Notes: generated from the letters alone by a model not told the origin. Shown: positions 16,693-25,975, numbered from the stretch's first letter. The stretch is DNA of 64,000 nucleotides from Chloracidobacterium sp. CP2_5A (GCA_002254845.1 NKPT01000007.1:1-64000), one strand, 5' to 3'. Translations and numbers: made by a program.

Positions 16693-17853
16693 CTACGCGG
16701 CTAGAGCGACAGCCTTTTCCGCCGCGTCTTTCATGCCGCTGGCGGTCGTGAAATTCAGCCCGGAGCTTTCGAGCAGCGCGCGCCCCTGCTCAACATTCGT
16801 CCCTTCAAGCCGAACGATAATCGGCAGCTTGACATCAAGGTTGCGGGCCGCGGCAATCACGCCCGCCGCCACCATATCGCACCGGACGATGCCGCCAAAA
16901 ATGTTGATGAGCACCGCCCGCACATTCGGGTCCGCCAGCAGGATGCGAAACGCCTGCTCGACGCGCTCCTGCGAAGCCCCGCCGCCCACGTCAAGGAAGT
17001 TGGCGGGATTGCCGCCGGCCAGCTTGATGATGTCCATGGTCGCCATCGCCAGCCCGGCCCCGTTGACCATGCAGCCGATCGTGCCGTCGAGCTTGACGTA
17101 GTTGAGGTCATACTTCGCGGCCTCGGTTTCGAGCGGATCTTCCTCGCGGGTGTCGCGCAACTCGACGTAGTCGGGGTGCCGATAGAGAGCGTTGTCGTCA
17201 AGCGTCACCTTGGCGTCAAGCGCGTAAAAATCGCCTTCCTTGGTTAGCAAAAACGGATTGATCTCAATGAGCGAGGCGTCGCTTTCGACAAAAGCCCGGT
17301 AGAGCGCCAGCAGAATCTTCGCCACCTTGGACGCTTGCCCGCCGGTGAAGCCCAGCCCGAAGGCGATTTTTCGCGCTTGGTAAGGCTGCAATCCCAGCGC
17401 TGGATCAACGACTTCGCGCAGAATCTTCTCCGGCGTTTCCGCCGCGACTTCCTCGATTTCCATGCCGCCCGCCTGGCTTGCCATGATGATGGGCGACGAG
17501 GTCGCCCGGTCAATGAGCAAACTGAGGTAAAGCTCGCGGTCAATGCGGAGGCCTTCCTCGACAATCAGGCGGTGAACCGTCCGGCCTTCGGGGCCCGTCT
17601 GCGGCGTCACCAACTTGTGACCCAGCATCCGCAGGGCGATGGATTCCACTTCCTCCAGCGAGTGCGCTAGCTTGACGCCGCCGCCCTTGCCGCGCCCGCC
17701 GGCGTGAATCTGCGCCTTCAGGACAACCGGAAACGCGCCCAACGCTTCCGCCGCCATACAGGCATCCATCGGGTTGAGCGCCACATGGTGGCGCGGGACG
17801 GGCACGCCAAACTTCGCCAGCAGGCGCTTGGCTTGATATTCGTGAATTTTCAT
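16693..17853 (-). CDS. sucC: Succinyl-CoA ligase (ADP-forming) beta subunit
   Basis: SucC is the nucleotide-binding subunit of the TCA-cycle enzyme interconverting succinyl-CoA and succinate with ATP formation. The ATP-grasp domain starts [20 protein letters not shown], with [17 protein letters not shown]. Further landmarks are [21 protein letters not shown] and [10 protein letters not shown], then [13 protein letters not shown] and [14 protein letters not shown]. 386 residues is normal. No sucD is next to it, unlike in most genomes. The leader contains a triplicated 19-bp unit carrying the ribosome-binding site. Confidence 0.96.
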
Positions 17854-17910
17854 AGCCTCAAATCCTCGCGGCAGCCTCAAATCCTCGCGGCAGCCGCAAA
17901 TCCTAGCGGC
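17854..17910. repeat. Three tandem 19-bp units between receptor gene and sucC
   Basis: The 19-bp unit AGCCTCAAATCCTCGCGGC is present at 17854-17872 and 17873-17891, and with two changes at 17892-17910. On the minus strand each of the first two copies gives a purine-rich GCGAGGA-TTTGAGG segment, so the sucC ribosome-binding site is repeated. The third copy contains the TAG stop (17903-17905) of the upstream receptor gene. Units are contiguous without spacers, so this is not a CRISPR. Confidence 0.9.
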
Positions 17911-19162
17911 GGCTGCGCAAACGCTCGATAGCTTGTTTCAAGCTGATCCGCATGCGCTCAAGCGACTCGCCAAGCTCGCCGATTTCGTCGCCGGTGGCGA
18001 CGGCGATGGGTTCATCGAGCTCGCCAAGGCTGATGCGATTGGCAGCTTCCGTGAGTTGTAAAATGGGGCTGGTGAGCCGTTGTGCCAGGAAAAAGGCCGC
18101 GCCAATGCCAAGCACCAGCGACACGCCAGTCACGATGGCGATGATGAGCAGCGTCGTATTGAAGACTTGGCTGAAGTAGCTCTCGCGGACGCCAACCCCA
18201 ACGTAGCCAATGATGGTCACGTCATCCGGCGCTTTGATGGGCGCGAACGCGGTCTTGTAACTTCCGCCCAGCAGGTTATTGCTGACAGCCGTCGGCTTAT
18301 CGGCGGCCAGCTCGCTTTGGATCGCCAAGCCGAGCGCTTTTGGATCGCTGGCGGAGATGACTTTCCTGTCTTTCGCCAGGACCAGCGACACGGCGACTTC
18401 CTGCAGGTCGCGGTAGAGCGTCTGCTTGACTTCCCGCGTCAGGGCCGTTAGCGGGCGATTTTCATCCTGCGGCGCGTTGTTGACGAGCTGCCCGGCCACG
18501 ACATAGCCCAGCGCCCGATTGCCGGACGCCACCGGCGCAATGGCTTCGATGGTCAGCCCAACCTGCGCCGTGACATTCTTGTTAAACTGCTCGGCCAAGC
18601 CGAGGGCCTTGAGCAAGTCGGGGGTTTCATTCACGGCTCCGGCAACCTGCGCGCGCAGCAGCGCGTCGGGCTGGTTGCTCTCGGCAGCGTTCTTGGCCTT
18701 GATAAACAGCGGGTTGTCGCCAAAGGAACCCTCGCCGCCGCCGGCGTTGCGAGCGAGCGCCTGCCCCTTCGTGTTGAGAATGGCGATGAAATCCACGCCG
18801 GAAGACTCGACTCGCTGCTTGATGAGCTGATTGAGCTTCTGCTGTCCGCTGGCCTGACTCTGCTGAGCCACTTGGGCCGGATTTCCGGAGGCGCTTGAAG
18901 CGCCGGTCGGCGGCGCCGCCGAGTCAATCAGATTTTCGGCCGCGACCGACTGCGCCGTCGCCTGCGCCACTTCGCGCAGCGTCTGTTGGCGCGAGCGGAG
19001 AATGCGGTCGGCTAGGCGGGCGTCCTTTTCAACGTCGCGACGAGCGTTACCGTCTATGGTGCCGCTGACGATAATCACGAAGGCCAGCGCCGAAAGAGCC
19101 AGCGGCGCGAAAATTAGCAGGGCGGCGAAGCCGGCGAGCTTGTTACGAATATTGAGTTTCAT
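17903..19162 (-). CDS. Double-Cache/HAMP membrane receptor without output domain
   Basis: The 419-residue protein has an N-terminal membrane segment (about residues 8-35), a large extracytoplasmic region of about 290 residues with Cache-like features (VDFIAILNTKGQALARN; SLVLAKDRKVISASDPKALG; DVTIIGYVGVGVRESYF), a second membrane segment (TTLLIIAIVTGVSLVLGIGAAFFLA) and a HAMP domain. It ends about 8 residues after HAMP, without a kinase, GGDEF or methyl-accepting domain. The ATG at 19162 puts the first membrane segment at the N-terminus. It is the last gene of a run containing PATAN and roadblock proteins, so the signal may pass to them; that is inference. Confidence 0.82.
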   Translation of the reverse strand: MKLNIRNKLAGFAALLIFAPLALSALAFVIIVSGTIDGNARRDVEKDARLADRILRSRQQTLREVAQATAQSVAAENLIDSAAPPTGASSASGNPAQVAQQSQASGQQKLNQLIKQRVESSGVDFIAILNTKGQALARNAGGGEGSFGDNPLFIKAKNAAESNQPDALLRAQVAGAVNETPDLLKALGLAEQFNKNVTAQVGLTIEAIAPVASGNRALGYVVAGQLVNNAPQDENRPLTALTREVKQTLYRDLQEVAVSLVLAKDRKVISASDPKALGLAIQSELAADKPTAVSNNLLGGSYKTAFAPIKAPDDVTIIGYVGVGVRESYFSQVFNTTLLIIAIVTGVSLVLGIGAAFFLAQRLTSPILQLTEAANRISLGELDEPIAVATGDEIGELGESLERMRISLKQAIERLRSRR

Positions 19163-19292
19163 GGGCGAGGATGCTTGGGGGCGAATCAACCGTAAAACGC
19201 TTGCCAGGATCCAGCTCGCTGAAAGCGTAGCGCCGGATGGCAGGCAAGGCGCTTGCGCCATAAAGTTGAGGAATCATCAGCCGCCATCGCGA

Positions 19293-20099
19293 TCAAGCAT
19301 AGAGATGTTGCATGATTTCGAGCATGGCTTCCTGAAATTTGACCCGCCGCTCATTGTCCGGGATTTCTTCAGCCAGGCGCTCTGCCAACGATGGCATCAT
19401 ATCCTTGGGCAATTGCCGCAGCTTAAAGCCAATCGACTCGGCGCAGTCTTCGAGAACAATCGGGGCCATCGGGCCAATGGCGCGCGTCAGCTCCCGCTCC
19501 GTCTGGTGAATGATGTCATCCGACACGGCATCCACCGCCACGTCTTCTTCCTGGCGCTCTCCGACATATTCGACCAGTCCCAGATCATACAACCGGACGA
19601 TGACCTTCGAGGCCATCAGCTCGTTGAGCTGCGTAATGTCGCCGATTTCGCCGATGGTTTGCACGCCATCCAAATTTTGAATCACCGACCAGTCTTCAGC
19701 GCGAAGCGAAAACTCCTTCATTGAGCGCGAGGAAAGCCGAAAGATCGCTCGCGCGGAAGGCACCACCCGCCGAACGCTTTCCCACTCCGTGGCGTACGTC
19801 ACGCATTCCAGCAGGATTTCCTCGGTTTGAAGATATGTGGTGCGCTCGTCGGTCGGCGCGTCGGCCGCGGTGAAGCTAAATCTTCCCGCGCCCCAGGAAA
19901 ACAGCCCATAAACGGCGTCCTCGCCAACGGCATCCTCATAGACGGCATGGACAATCTGTCCATTGTCAAAATGAACCTCGCCCTGCCGCCCGTCATCATG
20001 AACGAGCTCAAGCGTGCCAGTGCGATTGCTCGCATGGAGCAAGCGGAGAACATCCATCAGTTTGAGCTGCGCGAGATTGCCGCTGAATGCGTTTGACAT
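19293..20099 (-). CDS. PATAN (DUF4388)-domain protein
   Basis: The first ~95 residues (MSNAFSGNLAQLKLMDVLRLLHASNRTG... then EVHFDNGQIVHAVYEDAVGEDAVYGLFSWGAGRFSF) are a clear DUF4388/PATAN domain, a module found in bacterial signalling proteins, often with roadblock or receiver domains. A winged-helix-like middle (LDGVQTIGEIGDITQLNELMASKVIVRLYDLGLVEY) follows, then a C-terminal helical stretch starting ELTRAIGPMAPIVLEDCAES, seen at the end of many such proteins. It is soluble and lies between the receptor and roadblock genes. The molecular role is unknown. Confidence 0.82.
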   Translation of the reverse strand: MSNAFSGNLAQLKLMDVLRLLHASNRTGTLELVHDDGRQGEVHFDNGQIVHAVYEDAVGEDAVYGLFSWGAGRFSFTAADAPTDERTTYLQTEEILLECVTYATEWESVRRVVPSARAIFRLSSRSMKEFSLRAEDWSVIQNLDGVQTIGEIGDITQLNELMASKVIVRLYDLGLVEYVGERQEEDVAVDAVSDDIIHQTERELTRAIGPMAPIVLEDCAESIGFKLRQLPKDMMPSLAERLAEEIPDNERRVKFQEAMLEIMQHLYA

Positions 20100-20203
20100 G
20101 GTGCGCGTCCCTAGGGTTCAAGCAAAGATATCCGTTGGGCGCGCTGGCAACCTGAGACAAGCGGCGCGCGCGCCGTGCCGCTAAATCAGTCCGTGCCTCA
20201 CGC

Positions 20204-20695
20204 TCATTGGGCGCGGTTCATGGCCTCAAGCAATTCCCAGCTTGTCGCGTCGAGCCGGTCGCGCGTCAAAAGATTCCGACGCAGCACGCTGACGCTTATC
20301 CGTAGGCCCGCCACGGCGCGATCTTTTTTCAGCTTATCGGCCGCCACCTTGACAGTCATGCGCATGGTAGGCAAGTTCGCGGCGGGCGCGCTGACGAGAA
20401 TGAGGAAGACTTCCTGGGTACCATAGGTGGTCTCTATCATCAAGTCAAGATTTGTGAAGGTTGTGACGCGCCCCTCCGTAAACACCATCGAGATTTCCTC
20501 GACCTTGTCGTACTGAATCTCCGCGACCGATGAAAGCTGCGCTAGCAAAACCCCCATCTGCACGGTCGCCTGCGAGTTCAGCGCAAACTGCCCGGCGCTT
20601 AGAAGCACTTCCCCGCGGTTGTTGACAAGCAGGGCGCTCCTGACACCCGGCATCCGCATAAGGTCCTGGAGAAAAACTTCGTGAGCTTTTGACAT
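20204..20695 (-). CDS. Roadblock/LC7-domain protein
   Basis: A 163-residue protein. The first ~115 residues have the roadblock/LC7 pattern: an N-terminal helix (HEVFLQDLMRMPGVRSALLVNNRGEVLLSAG), a central helix (ATVQMGVLLAQLSSVAE) and a strand stretch (TFTNLDLMIETTYGTQEVFLILVSAPAANLPTMRMTVKVAADKL). Roadblock proteins bind and regulate small Ras-like GTPases such as MglA. A C-terminal helical tail of about 45 residues is additional. AAGGAG lies about 5 bases before the ATG. No GTPase gene is found in the window. Confidence 0.85.
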   Translation of the reverse strand: MSKAHEVFLQDLMRMPGVRSALLVNNRGEVLLSAGQFALNSQATVQMGVLLAQLSSVAEIQYDKVEEISMVFTEGRVTTFTNLDLMIETTYGTQEVFLILVSAPAANLPTMRMTVKVAADKLKKDRAVAGLRISVSVLRRNLLTRDRLDATSWELLEAMNRAQ

Positions 20696-20800
20696 GAGCG
20701 CTCCTTGCGCGTCGCGTCAAGCGACGCCTTACGTAATCACGAGCGGCCTGCCACCGCCGGAACCGCGCCATCGGACAGCCGCCGCCCGCAGCGCCGCCAG

Positions 20801-22057
20801 CTAACCAGCGGCGGGCGCCAGGATTTCATTCGTAGCGATCTCCAGCCCGTAGCGATCAAACTCCGCCTGCCGCCGTTGACGCAAGGCTCGCAGCGCCATC
20901 TCGATGTGGCTGCGCACGCCCGTGTCGGGCGAGCGCCGGTCAAGATCGGCGACCGCAAGTCGCAGCGCCTGGGCCAACCCGACCACGAAGTCGGCCGGAC
21001 GCGCCTTGCCGCGAAAGGTGGCGACCCCGCCAGCATACTCGAACTCGGCGGCGAATGGATCAAGAAACGGATAATGCGTGGCGATGTTGATGAGCGCTTC
21101 CCGAAAAGACGGCAGAAAGTCCGCGCGTCGCAAAGCGTCCGTTACGCCGGCTTCCACTGCGCTGACCACTTCGCCCATGAGGCTGACTAGCTCGGCGTAC
21201 TGCTCGCGGGTCAGCGGACGGGTGCTTTCGTCTTCAAGCTCCAGGGGCGAGTCGCTGTCATCCGCGTCTTCAACCAGCGCCATGTCCACAACCGGCGACG
21301 CCGGGGGCGCGATGTGAATCTCAGGCACGCGAATCGTTGGCGGCGGTTCCTCGGCCTGGCCAACGTCGCTGGCGCGCCTAACCGAAACGGCCGCGGCCGG
21401 GGGCGCGGCTTCCGCTCGCGGCGCGGTCGGCGGCTTGATGGCCGCAATCGAGGCGGCCGGCGCCGCGACGCCCCGATAGACGTTGAAGGTCGCCCCCTTC
21501 GCGGCGCGCTCGTAAATCAGCTTTAGCCCATCCAAGCCAAGCGCCGTTTGGCGCGGCTCCGCGCCCGCGGACTCGACCGAGACCACGCCCTCCGCCCGGT
21601 CGCCCAACGTGTAGATGATGCCGCCGCCCTGTTCCCCCTCAAACAGCGCCTCGACGTACCAGACCTCGCCCGACTTCACGAGTTTCTCGACCAGCTTTTC
21701 AAGGCTAGTAAAGTCTGAGGACAGATCGCGGTGAACCGGCTCGCCGTTGATAATCCCGGTAATCGCCTGAATCACCTCTTCTGGATGCTGAAAAAAGCCG
21801 ACCTTGCCATTGCGCGCCTGCGCGCGCGACAGCAAGCTGTCAAGCGCCTCGCGCTCGCGCTGAATAATCGCTTCAGTCGCCTCGTAAGCGTTGACGATCT
21901 GCCCGCGCGACAAAAACACGTAGCCGCTATAGCCCCAGAACTCGACCGAAACGTAGCCCGTAAACTCGTTGACCTGAAGATCAGCTAGCAGAGCGGCGAC
22001 GTTGACATAGGAGGTGCTTAGATTTTCATGAACTGGCTTTCCACGCGGAACAATCAT
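20801..22057 (-). CDS. PATAN-like signalling protein with long linker
   Basis: 418 residues. The N-terminal ~110 residues (VAALLADLQVNEFTGYVSVEFWGYSGYVFLSRGQIVNAYEAT) look like a diverged PATAN/DUF4388 domain. A second alpha/beta region (LEKLVEKLVKSGEVWYVEALFEGEQGGGIIYTLGDR) ends near residue 195. A Pro/Ala-rich acidic linker runs to about residue 280, and the C-terminal part (LTREQYAELVSLMGEVVSAVEAGV...) is helical. The protein is soluble. It sits 29 bases after the PATAN-roadblock gene. No enzymatic motif is visible and the function is unknown. Confidence 0.68.
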   Translation of the reverse strand: MIVPRGKPVHENLSTSYVNVAALLADLQVNEFTGYVSVEFWGYSGYVFLSRGQIVNAYEATEAIIQREREALDSLLSRAQARNGKVGFFQHPEEVIQAITGIINGEPVHRDLSSDFTSLEKLVEKLVKSGEVWYVEALFEGEQGGGIIYTLGDRAEGVVSVESAGAEPRQTALGLDGLKLIYERAAKGATFNVYRGVAAPAASIAAIKPPTAPRAEAAPPAAAVSVRRASDVGQAEEPPPTIRVPEIHIAPPASPVVDMALVEDADDSDSPLELEDESTRPLTREQYAELVSLMGEVVSAVEAGVTDALRRADFLPSFREALINIATHYPFLDPFAAEFEYAGGVATFRGKARPADFVVGLAQALRLAVADLDRRSPDTGVRSHIEMALRALRQRRQAEFDRYGLEIATNEILAPAAG

Positions 22058-22086
22058 GACCAGGCGTATAAACCAGAGTGGCGGCG

Positions 22087-22923
22087 CTACATCGTCAGCG
22101 GCCCGGCATAGGGGCCGGGCGGCGTCAGCGCGCCGGCGCCGCCCAGCAGCCCGGTTGAGACGCCCTCGCTGGCGCCGTTGATTCGAGCCTGCATCTTGCG
22201 AAAGAGGCGATCAATATGCGGACTCATGGTCTCAAAGCGAACCGCCGAGCTGAACTCGATGAGCGCGAGGTAATTTTCCAGATCGAAAACCATGACCTTC
22301 TTCGGCCCAGTGCTGATAGTCATTCGAGACAGCGGACCGACGCGCCCTGGAACCGTGATAAGCCGCCCCAGATGAACCAGCAGCGCTACCATCATCCCAA
22401 GCTTTTCAGCCGACCTGACCTTGCTGGACGCCTGCACGGTGCCGTCGCGGGAGACAGCCAGCGCCAGATCAACGCCCTTGACCTTGGTAAGATCGTTGAC
22501 CAGCGATTGATAGATGTTCACGACGCGGGCCGCGCCGCTAGTGGTCGTTGGCGTCCGCGTCGGAGCGATAGCCGGCGTCGCCGCCGCCAGATCCCCTTCC
22601 TCGCCCCGCCCGGCGCGCGCCTCGTCGAGTAGCCGCAGCCCCTCCATGATGAGGTTGGCCCACGGCTCGAAAATGGTTCGCGTCGGCGCTGGAATCCCGG
22701 TGTCAATCCGAAAAGCGCCCTGGTCATATTCCAGGGCCTTGTAGACCGCTTCTACGCCGACCAGGTTGCCTAAGCGCGCATCCACCACTTCGCCGTCAGC
22801 GAAGTAAAAAACGCCGTCGCCGATGGGATAGTGAACCGTGAGCCGCGCTGTGTTACGGCCGACGCAGTTAATTTGAATGATGTCCACCAGCGCGAGGTCG
22901 GTGAGGTCGCCAACAAGCGGCAT
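22087..22923 (-). CDS. PATAN-roadblock fusion protein
   Basis: Two modules in 278 residues. An N-terminal DUF4388/PATAN domain (MPLVGDLTDLALVDIIQINCVGRNTARLTV... GVFYFADGEVVDARLGNLVGVEAVYKALEYDQGAFRI) is followed by a Thr/Ala-rich linker and a roadblock/LC7 domain (LVNDLTKVKGVDLALAVSRDGTVQASSKVRSAEKLGMMVALLVHLGRL... VMVFDLENYLALIEF). The C-terminal tail is Gly/Pro-rich. It is the first gene of the cluster behind the promoter at 22990-23019, with GGAAAG seven bases before the ATG. The fusion supports a functional link between the PATAN and roadblock genes downstream. Confidence 0.82.
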   Translation of the reverse strand: MPLVGDLTDLALVDIIQINCVGRNTARLTVHYPIGDGVFYFADGEVVDARLGNLVGVEAVYKALEYDQGAFRIDTGIPAPTRTIFEPWANLIMEGLRLLDEARAGRGEEGDLAAATPAIAPTRTPTTTSGAARVVNIYQSLVNDLTKVKGVDLALAVSRDGTVQASSKVRSAEKLGMMVALLVHLGRLITVPGRVGPLSRMTISTGPKKVMVFDLENYLALIEFSSAVRFETMSPHIDRLFRKMQARINGASEGVSTGLLGGAGALTPPGPYAGPLTM

Positions 22924-22989
22924 AAGACTTTCCAGGAACGGGGAAAATTGTTTTTGAAAGCGCCAGGAACTTTCTGAGAAGGCTTAGGC

Positions 22990-23019
22990 AGTTTAACAAA
23001 GTTTCTTTCGCGGTGTCAA
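22990..23019 (-). promoter_or_regulatory. Predicted sigma70 promoter of the PATAN/roadblock cluster
   Basis: On the minus strand a perfect -35 box TTGACA (23019-23014) is separated by 18 bases from TAAACT (22995-22990). It lies about 70 bases before the start of the first cluster gene, with no other gene between. Genes from 22923 down to 17903 run the same way with gaps of 29-130 bases and could share this promoter. Confidence 0.6.
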
Positions 23020-23056: not shown

Positions 23057-25975
23057 CTAGGGCGACCCGCCGCTCGCCTTTCGAGTTGAGCGCCAGCGAT
23101 GCTGCCGCCATAAGTAAGTTCCAGCCATAAAAAGCGCGAGTCCAGTGATGGCGAGATAGACACTATACGGAATATCGCCCCAAGGCACGCTGAACGCGAC
23201 GACTACGGAGAGATGAAAGCTAAGGCAAAGCCCGCCGAGCGCAAGCGGGCCGCGCAGGCGCGCCACGAGACCAAGCGACAGGGACGCCAGCGCCGCCGTA
23301 TCCGCGATGAGGTCGTAAGGCAGCGCGACGCCGCCGGCCAGGCGACGTTGCAGCGCCTGCAAAGCGACCGGAAAGCAAAAAATCAAGCTCCCCGCCCAGA
23401 TAAGTCCCTCCGATAGCGCGGGGCTGCCCCGCTGTAAGCGTCGCTTGAGCCATCCGACGATGCCCATCGCCAGCCCGTACGGCAAAGCGATGAAGGCGAT
23501 CAGCCCAAACGCCGGCAAGCTAAGGTAGCGCAGCCACCAAGCGTAGGCCGCGCCGCCCCAGAGCAGACCGCCCAGCGCATAAGCGTCATGCAACGGCCCG
23601 TCGGCGGCGATCAGGCTGACGACGGCCAACGCGACGGCGGCGCCAAGCAGACTGCCGCCGACCGCCAAGCCGTCGCTCGCTTGGGTAATCATTAAGCCGG
23701 ACACGGCGGCAAGCCATAGAAAGCATTGTCCGCCCGTCGCGAGCGCCGACCATTCGGACGCCCGCTCCGCCTGACGCCGCCGCCGCCACCCCAGCCAAGT
23801 CGCGCTGTAGCCATAAAGGACGCCGATCATAGGCAGCGCCTCAAACGGGCAACTGACGAGTCGCGCCGCTTGGATCGCCGCCCCCCCCCCGCACAGCGTG
23901 GATAGCAGCGCCATGAGCGGCATTTGCCACCGCCAGGCCACCGTCCAGCCGGCAACCGCCGCCGCCGTCAGCGTCAGGGCGTGACCGCCCGCGCGCCCTT
24001 CTCCGACAATCATCCCAACCAAGGCGACGAGCGCCCCACAGGCAAGCGCGCCAAGCGAAACCTGACACAGCGACCGCCGAAGCGTTGGCTCGTCCGCGAC
24101 GGGGCGGGACGCGCCAACCAGAGCAAGCGCCGCCAATAGGGCGATCCAAGGCAGGACGACGAAAAGGTCGGCGCGCTTGATGATGCCGCAGCCAGCGTTC
24201 AAGAGACCAAGGTAAGCCACGCTCCACATCGCCAGCGCGTAGGCGCGCTGCGCCCGAGGAACGCCGTTGACCAGCCAGCACAAGCCGCAGTAGGCAGCCG
24301 CGACGCCAAACCCAAGCAGTTGCGCGACGCTCCAGTCCCGCGCGTCCGGCGCGAGCAGCCCCAGCAGGCAACCAAGCAGTCCGCCATCCAGGATGACCCG
24401 CGACGGGATGATGGCCGGATGGTTGGGCAGCCCAAAATCCAGACCAAAATTGGTATCAACTTCCGTGCTGTACCCCTGCCCAAAGCGGACGCCGAGCGTT
24501 TCCACGCCGAGGCGCGTCGCGCACAGCGCCGTCGGCAACGCCAAGATCAGAAAGGGTTGGGCCGGCGACAGGCGGGCGAGCGCGCCGACGGCGGCGAGGA
24601 GCGTCGTCGTCGCCAAGGCAAGCGGAAACCAGGTTAGCTGCTCGCGAAGATGCCAGGCGCTCCACCCCAACAGCAGTCCGAGCGCCAGCCAACGGGCGAC
24701 CGCTTCGATCAGCGGCATCCGAGCCGATTCAAGCGGAAAACAGGCGCTCTGCATCATGGCCGCGAGGGCCCACAAGCCAAGCGCGCCGGCGACGACCTGC
24801 GCCAATCCTTCAAAAAGCCGCGACAGCGGCAGCGGCGAAGGAAGGAGCGGCGACAACTTCCGCGTCGCCTCCCAGCGACTCGCCGCCCGCTGCCCGGCAG
24901 TCGCCATCCATAGCCAGCCGACCCAGCCAAGCGCCTGGAAGGACGGCGCCAGCGCTAGCGCGGCGAGCCAGCGCCCGTAACTGATGGTCATTGCCGCTAA
25001 TCCGCCGACTGATAAAGCCCAAACCGCCGCTGGCGCGCCGCCAAGTCGCCCCATGACAAGGCACGCCGCGCCGATGACGCCCCCTGCCCACGCCTCGCTC
25101 AACAAGGGAGACGCCACCGCGCACCCGGCAATAACGAAGCCTGCCCACCGTCGTCCGGGCGTGGCCAGGACCTGCCCCGGATGCCGCGCCGACCAGGCCG
25201 CAAGCCCCGCGGCGGCGGCCGACGCCAGCGTTGCGGCAACGCCCGGCGTGGCCACGTCCAGCCCGAGCCACCATACGGCAAGCAGCAGGGCCGGCGCGGG
25301 CAGGTAGGCTAAAATTCGGTTGGCGACCCAAGCCGCCAACAGCCAATAGGTTGCGCCGCAGGCCAGGGCGTAAGCCCACCCGCCGCCCGCCGGCAGCCGG
25401 CCGTGATAGACGCCGGCCCAAAAATTGAGCGGAAGCAGCAGCGCGCCAATCCACAGCCCGCCCTGGGCCGCGAGGTCTTCCGGTCGGCGATGCGCGCCGC
25501 GGACGCCCAATCCCAGCACTCCCGCCGTTACCCCGGCGAGCATCGCCAGCTGAAGAGCCGGGCGCTCCAAAATGGCCTCCCGAAAGTAAATCGCCGCGCC
25601 GACAACCATCAGCAGGCTGCCGCCATAAATCAGAGCCACGAGCAGCCAGGGGGTGACAGCGCCGCCCGAGGCGGGCGGCGCGGCGGATGAATTAACCAGC
25701 AATGACGGCGGCGGCTTGACCAGGGCATCGGCCGGCGACGAGGCTCGTATCGGCGGAGCGCCGGGCGTTGCCGCCGGCAACAGCTGCGCGAGGATGGCTC
25801 TGCGCTCGCCCTCCAGCGCGGCCAAGCGCGCGAAAGCCGCCGGCTCGTGGCGCAGTCCGCAGCGGATGCAGTGCTTCCAACTCAGCGCCAATCCCGCTCC
25901 GCAGTTTGGACACGGGATGGTTCTAGGGTCGGCGCTCGGCGCAGCGCCCCCTGGAGGAGACGTTCCATCCGACAT
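23057..25975 (-). CDS. Very large polytopic membrane protein with N-terminal zinc ribbon
   Basis: 972 residues. The N-terminus has a zinc-ribbon pattern CPNCGAGLALSWKHCIRCG (two CxxC pairs), followed by a short coiled segment and a Pro/Ala-rich linker. From about residue 105 to the end the protein is almost continuously hydrophobic, with more than twenty likely membrane segments rich in Leu, Ala, Gly and Trp. Large zinc-ribbon membrane proteins of this kind occur in several phyla without known function. A run of ten C at 23881-23890 lies in frame within the gene. AGAGG precedes the ATG at 25975. It is divergent from hisZ. Confidence 0.75.
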   Translation of the reverse strand: MSDGTSPPGGAAPSADPRTIPCPNCGAGLALSWKHCIRCGLRHEPAAFARLAALEGERRAILAQLLPAATPGAPPIRASSPADALVKPPPSLLVNSSAAPPASGGAVTPWLLVALIYGGSLLMVVGAAIYFREAILERPALQLAMLAGVTAGVLGLGVRGAHRRPEDLAAQGGLWIGALLLPLNFWAGVYHGRLPAGGGWAYALACGATYWLLAAWVANRILAYLPAPALLLAVWWLGLDVATPGVAATLASAAAAGLAAWSARHPGQVLATPGRRWAGFVIAGCAVASPLLSEAWAGGVIGAACLVMGRLGGAPAAVWALSVGGLAAMTISYGRWLAALALAPSFQALGWVGWLWMATAGQRAASRWEATRKLSPLLPSPLPLSRLFEGLAQVVAGALGLWALAAMMQSACFPLESARMPLIEAVARWLALGLLLGWSAWHLREQLTWFPLALATTTLLAAVGALARLSPAQPFLILALPTALCATRLGVETLGVRFGQGYSTEVDTNFGLDFGLPNHPAIIPSRVILDGGLLGCLLGLLAPDARDWSVAQLLGFGVAAAYCGLCWLVNGVPRAQRAYALAMWSVAYLGLLNAGCGIIKRADLFVVLPWIALLAALALVGASRPVADEPTLRRSLCQVSLGALACGALVALVGMIVGEGRAGGHALTLTAAAVAGWTVAWRWQMPLMALLSTLCGGGAAIQAARLVSCPFEALPMIGVLYGYSATWLGWRRRRQAERASEWSALATGGQCFLWLAAVSGLMITQASDGLAVGGSLLGAAVALAVVSLIAADGPLHDAYALGGLLWGGAAYAWWLRYLSLPAFGLIAFIALPYGLAMGIVGWLKRRLQRGSPALSEGLIWAGSLIFCFPVALQALQRRLAGGVALPYDLIADTAALASLSLGLVARLRGPLALGGLCLSFHLSVVVAFSVPWGDIPYSVYLAITGLALFMAGTYLWRQHRWRSTRKASGGSP

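Follow-up and report, generated by a model that had tools for sequence, protein, structure and literature searches.

A deeply conserved receptor, PATAN and roadblock gene set in Chloracidobacterium as a candidate receptor module of the MglA/MglB switch

We analysed by computation a 64,000-nucleotide stretch of the genome of Chloracidobacterium sp. CP2_5A (hereafter the window), in which five genes, designated A to E, occupy positions 17903-23019 on the minus strand. The set combines PATAN and roadblock proteins with a receptor, E, that has no output domain and whose gene adjoins that of the PATAN protein D. It is deeply conserved, and in other phyla it shares operons with mglB and mglA. MglA, a Ras-like switch protein, is familiar mainly from its part in cell polarity and surface movement. 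On balance we favour, with some reserve, the reading that A to E act together as a conserved receptor module for the MglA/MglB switch, in which a signal would pass from E to D, from D to A, B and C, and from these to MglB and MglA.

The five-gene set is conserved in distant phyla

Contig C379, which holds the window, belongs to a 3.4-Mb genome that is 95% complete. The original prediction, made from the sequence of the window, had described five genes here. Every open reading frame was found, on the minus strand and with the order and span it gave; the reading frames run A, B, C, D, E in the direction of transcription. The features are listed below with the evidence for each.

22990..23019, minus: promoter-like element upstream of A, TTGACA-18-TAAACT (10/12 consensus matches)
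22087..22923, minus: gene A, PATAN (DUF4388)-roadblock protein, 278 amino acids (aa) (Pfam; orthologues throughout the taxonomic order and in other phyla)
20801..22057, minus: gene B, PATAN-like protein, 418 aa, with a conserved C-terminal domain (Pfam, orthologues)
20204..20695, minus: gene C, stand-alone roadblock protein, 163 aa (Pfam, AlphaFold2 model, Foldseek)
19293..20099, minus: gene D, PATAN-winged helix-STAC-like protein, 268 aa (Pfam, AlphaFold2 model, VIA-align)
19554..19769, minus: predicted winged helix of D, residues 111-182 (AlphaFold2, VIA-align, MarR-type sequence matches)
19296..19520, minus: C-terminal STAC-like domain of D, four helices, residues 194-268; IGPMA motif between the first two helices (PDB sequence match, VIA-align)
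17903..19162, minus: gene E, Cache-type receptor, 419 aa (Pfam; identity across phyla)
17906..18091, minus: HAMP domain of E with its conserved end helix (LERMRISLKQAIERLRSRR); together they make up everything cytosolic that follows the second membrane helix

A was encoded in 14/14 genomes of the taxonomic order, and A-B-C-D-E kept one order on one strand wherever contigs allowed, with G013 lacking B. A profile search with C was positive in 15 of 247 Acidobacteriota genomes. The positive genomes from other families and classes had the same gene order, with identities of about 25-45%; a few lacked B. Scanning named genomes with a D alignment then revealed Calditrichota and Desulfobacterota-type metagenome-assembled genomes with the same neighbours. 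D occurred in 40/40 Calditrichota genomes; the 36 loci read there held C (36), E (36), MglB (35), MglA (34), A (33) and B (15). Any D match was found in 98 of 345 Desulfobacterota genomes, many of the matches being weak, and 40 strong loci were chosen from this phylum on D alone, without regard to mglA. An E-type receptor was adjacent to D in 35/40 of these, with A in 23/40 and B in 17/40. A tree of D was strongly structured by phylum and placed Blastocatellia beside Calditrichota (support 86/75). D and E were the most constant members of the set.

A gene order kept in no relative would have refuted the original prediction. A-(B)-C-D-E does recur, on a single strand, across the taxonomic order and in further classes of Acidobacteriota, as well as in Calditrichota and Desulfobacterota. 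The five-gene set is ancient, with its order kept in distant bacterial phyla. DUF4388 was also present in Synechococcus, Thermus and Deinobacterium control genomes, which has no bearing on the gene set. One further locus (L113, D 83% identical) carries the cluster in a metagenome-assembled genome labelled Actinomycetota, on a scaffold named WN_Acidobacteria; this is probably a mislabelled Blastocatellia genome.

The same comparison bears on the simplest alternative, that the genes are mere neighbours, with E serving sucC or other metabolism and the PATAN and roadblock genes unrelated to it. The sucC gene (succinyl-CoA synthetase beta; window 16693-17880) follows E after a gap of 22 bases in the window, and closely throughout the family. 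This linkage was not seen in the second family of the taxonomic order, nor was sucC found beside E elsewhere outside the family, and we rejected sucC as a functional partner of E because the linkage is family-limited. D and E, by comparison, stand together in Acidobacteriota, Calditrichota and Desulfobacterota. This gene order across phyla contradicts the idea of mere neighbours, which we regard as hardly credible.

The set is linked to mglB and mglA in other phyla

As the original prediction had stated, no GTPase is encoded at 17903-23019. It had proposed a search for an MglA-like GTPase elsewhere in the genome, and mglB and mglA were found side by side on contig C5. Apart from A and C, these were the only genes over the cut-offs in Robl_LC7 and Arf family searches of the window's genome.

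In Calditrichota, nearly every locus read was an operon with the order A-(B)-C-D-E-MglB-MglA, and the genes absent from individual loci appear to fall at contig ends. Among the 40 Desulfobacterota loci, 10 had MglA within 5 kb of D on the strand of D, against a chance expectation of about 1% (binomial p ~6e-12, an indicative value since the loci are related). The linked GTPase is MglA proper, with Myxococcus xanthus MglA as its top PDB match (E 3e-91). From these operons in two phyla, a functional coupling of the set to MglA is well supported.

One observation weighs against extending this link to the lineage of the window: no mglA was seen close to the set in any Acidobacteriota locus or in 30/40 Desulfobacterota loci, some loci being truncated at the ends of contigs. 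The presence of mglA in 15/15 Acidobacteriota genomes with the cluster, compared with 173 of 247 genomes of the phylum overall, agrees with the link, but the gene is common there (70%), and the co-occurrence is weak evidence and phylogenetically non-independent. In the window's lineage, the case for a GTPase link comes from relatives and from genome content.

A different reading is that PATAN domains drive type IV pilus motors directly, with the roadblock parts as scaffolds and MglA acting in parallel, not downstream. PATAN response regulators of Synechocystis act on the pilus machinery, PixE on PilB1 (PMC7690835). The window's genome has six PilT-family genes over the family cut-off, which suits the preferred reading as well, and many Desulfobacterota loci hold A, D and E with mglA not nearby. 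However, two of the encoded proteins contain roadblock domains, which are typical GTPase regulators; mglB-mglA closes the operons of Calditrichota; and pilus genes lay outside the conserved set in the loci examined. We consider direct action on pilus motors rather unlikely.

E is a receptor that ends after its HAMP domain

Pfam detected a HAMP domain (57 bits) and sCache_3_2 (41 bits, in two stretches) in E. The original prediction of a double-Cache receptor was borne out as far as these two stretches go, and 'double Cache' itself was only partly supported. A conserved ATG at 19162 was taken as the start (419 aa), not the upstream ATG (452 aa). Its description of a receptor that stops after HAMP held: in the relatives examined, only one short helix follows HAMP, with the consensus LERMRISLKxAIERLR, and E contains no kinase, cyclase or chemotaxis output. 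The proteins counted as E, defined by fewer than 25 residues beyond the end helix, had only a few residues past it. From family to phylum distance, HAMP and tail were 49-76% identical, and the sensor part 19-46%.

D preceded E in 94 of 97 pairs. A 4-base overlap of the two genes is typical in Calditrichota, suggesting translational coupling.

Two Desulfobacterota loci encode HAMP-terminated proteins near mglBA that have a zinc-ribbon-like start, detected by Pfam in one (L129:2259-3467) and of CxxC type in the other (L130:16838-17941).

D carries a C-terminal domain that resembles STAC

The original prediction had suggested that the cytosolic proteins serve as the output of E. The present data support this suggestion and point to a specific candidate, D. 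The protein has a PATAN domain (82 bits in Pfam) and 160 further residues, and its AlphaFold2 model (predicted local distance difference test, pLDDT, 88) comprised PATAN, a winged helix and a C-terminal four-helix domain.

A profile of the C-terminal domain ranked Af1502, a STAC protein of known structure, first of 177,635 PDB sequences (E only 0.0095); in the alignment, ELKKEIGPIAKI of Af1502 pairs with eLtkaiGPiApv of the D consensus. VIA-align superimposed the domain on Af1502 (5a1q) with Z 7.5 and a root-mean-square deviation of 2.9 over 69 residues. In the D model the helices span residues 194-208, 212-222, 232-244 and 249-267; they form two hairpins joined by a nine-residue linker, as in the STAC fold, and the counterpart of the STAC motif LGPx(x)A lies between helices 194-208 and 212-222. 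GPx(x)[A/G] was present in 91/95 D proteins, and the residue before GP was mostly I, L, M or V. We thus describe the C-terminal domain of D as having a modest resemblance to STAC, in predicted fold as well as in sequence.

The neighbouring gene makes this similarity more convincing, since a HAMP-terminated receptor is encoded next door and was not used in finding it. Genes of the Af1502 type are often coupled to Af1503-like receptors, in which HAMP is the sole cytosolic part (PMC4834066). If D is taken as a STAC protein, E agrees with this description: HAMP is its sole cytosolic domain and its gene is coupled to that of a STAC protein. The STAC domain of CbrA docks beneath a transporter, whose motions it has been proposed to relay (PMC13022988).

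Other results count against the assignment. The whole D model had no Foldseek match at E 0.001 (VIA-align then split D into the winged helix and the STAC-like part), and Pfam and NCBIfam held nothing consistent for the STAC-like part. An E of 0.0095 and a Z of 7.5 are modest for a helical bundle, for which, as VIA warns, Z up to about 13 can reflect a common arrangement. As regards the proposed module as a whole, the winged helix could mean that D binds DNA instead.

That last point leads to a further reading, in which D regulates transcription while tethered to the membrane: it would bind DNA through the winged helix, E would control its release, and the roadblock proteins would only assemble the complex. 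The modelled fold of the middle part and its MarR-type sequence matches (E ~0.0007) agree with this. In structure, however, the closest matches of the winged helix were subunits of the GATOR1/SEA complex (VIA-align, Z up to 9.8), with MarR-type proteins next, and a transcriptional role leaves the roadblock proteins and the operon mglBA unexplained; we judge it quite improbable. GATOR1/SEA complex subunits are eukaryotic regulators of Rag GTPases; those matched are of the NPRL2/NPRL3 type, which we take not to be DNA binders. The likeness may be due to chance, yet it fits a GTPase context.

About 18 PATAN (DUF4388) matches were found in the window's genome (G000), 15 over the cut-off and 3 below. 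Two lie at close positions on contig C5 (27829 and 29527). In a genome-wide profile search, a STAC-like domain of the type found in D occurred once, limited to the A-E cluster.

Roadblock and PATAN proteins A, B and C

The Robl_LC7 matches of A and C fell under the Pfam cut-off, and C was therefore modelled. Its match was 18 bits. The AlphaFold2 model (pLDDT 86) resembled, in a Foldseek search of the PDB, LAMTOR/Ragulator, a Streptomyces roadblock protein, MglB and MglC, with probability 1.00 for LAMTOR, MglB and MglC. Sequence and modelled fold together indicate that C is a roadblock protein, in line with the original prediction. It was not called MglB, because the profile comparison with MglB was weak (hhalign probability 54%) and the likeness is in fold only; the genome has a clear, separate MglB, whose gene neighbours mglA on contig C5.

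A matched DUF4388/PATAN with 68 bits, so that both the PATAN-roadblock fusion (A) and the second PATAN protein (D) of the original prediction have PATAN over the Pfam cut-off. The Robl_LC7 match of A reached 18.1 bits (cut-off 23), and that of a receiver-PATAN-roadblock orthologue 24.2 bits, over the cut-off; A is thus assigned to the roadblock family as C is, with the fold modelled for C alone. The PATAN match of B was 19.7 bits (cut-off 25), and its assignment as PATAN-like stands through a Desulfofervidaceae orthologue at 38.2 bits. B is an optional member; it was not found in about half of the Calditrichota loci, nor in G013, G085 or G140.

A-type proteins of the Desulfobacterota examined often have a receiver domain, and a kinase-receiver pair precedes A in one Calditrichota locus (L125). 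In such relatives phosphorylation may therefore be a second input; the A of the window has no receiver domain.

Proposed signalling route and comparison with known systems

In the proposed receptor module for MglA/MglB, a ligand outside the membrane would act on the Cache-type domain of E and change the shape of the HAMP dimer. D would read this signal, most likely with its STAC-like C-terminal domain on the HAMP end helix, and its PATAN and winged helix would pass the state to A, B and C. These three would then associate with MglA and the MglB roadblock dimer, or compete with them. The site or rate of MglA switching would be altered, and with it surface motility by type IV pili, or polarity. 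We infer the contact between STAC and HAMP, any influence on hydrolysis or exchange of GTP, and an output in motility from the known roles of MglA (PMC9481161, PMC11580455) and PATAN (PMC7690835); which way the regulation runs is likewise an inference. The operon is compact enough for a stepwise reconstruction in which each protein is assayed in turn.

To our knowledge, routes from extracellular signals to bacterial Ras-like GTPases are known in few cases, namely Frz-RomR in Myxococcus and the conservon kinases in Actinomycetota. If true, the present proposal would describe a bacterial receptor-to-small-GTPase pathway and would supply several phyla with a receptor for MglA. It would also suggest a role for HAMP-ending receptors such as the puzzling Af1503, namely to hand the signal to a STAC-like protein tied into a GTPase circuit. 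The broader claim, of a widespread receptor class leading from a HAMP-terminated sensor through a STAC-like domain to PATAN/roadblock proteins, MglB and MglA, without phosphorylation or second messenger, is put forward more tentatively, as a possibility that we do not yet favour.

The M. xanthus MglA/MglB module (RomR/RomX, RomY, MglC, SgmX) has the GTPase and the roadblock family of GTPase-activating proteins in common with the set. There, too, extra roadblock and accessory proteins regulate MglB under sensory input, with type IV pili and gliding as output (PMC9481161, PMC11580455). Its input comes from the Frz chemosensory system and RomR, whereas here it would come from a HAMP-terminated receptor and a STAC-like PATAN adaptor of one operon. 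Conservons (Cvn) of Actinomycetota also differ from the set. CvnA keeps a histidine-kinase core and E stops after HAMP; PATAN proteins take the place of CvnC; and the GTPase, which is not in the window, shares the operon only in Calditrichota and some Desulfobacterota. The set belongs to bacterial small-GTPase signalling and is not a conservon, because the defining kinase sensor is absent.

The Af1503/Af1502 pair of Archaeoglobus fulgidus, like E and D, couples a receptor with HAMP as its only cytosolic domain to a small helical protein with an LGPx(x)A-type motif (PMC4834066). Af1502 is similar to the end of D in sequence and fold. It consists of STAC alone and is found near transporters, whereas D adds PATAN and a winged helix and sits in a roadblock/MglA set. 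In the cyanobacterial PATAN-CheY regulators PixE, PixG and LsiR, PATAN is a signalling part tied to surface motility (PMC7690835); those systems have neither roadblock domains nor an output-less receptor, and the proteins of the window have no receiver domain.

That PATAN genes occur near some mglA and mglB homologues is already known. Wuichet and Sogaard-Andersen (PMC4316618, citing Makarova et al. 2006) place them near Group 1 and 5 mglA and call this occasional; the passages concerned describe no receptor, STAC-like domain or fixed order for these groups. In the open-access literature, to which our search was confined, we found no account of the receptor-STAC-PATAN-roadblock set with its fixed order and output-less receptor, or of its STAC-like domain.

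Region upstream of A and further A-type genes

The original prediction had placed a promoter ahead of A. The box at 23019-22990 is promoter-like, as judged by its consensus match and conservation: its TTGACA was invariant in 8/8 aligned genomes (the genus and its nearest neighbour), and we regard it as a putative promoter.

Directly upstream of A, window 23057-25975 encodes a membrane-type protein of 972 aa that has a zinc ribbon at its N-terminus; it is fast-evolving (46-69% within the genus), and the rest of the protein had no family match. Second copies of gene A, with 57-60% identity and B to E not nearby, were present in L033 and L034 (G009:C60 and G008:C53). An 817-aa reading frame in G010 (L075:8791-11244) starts with an A-type PATAN domain that is 59% identical to A over 123 residues.

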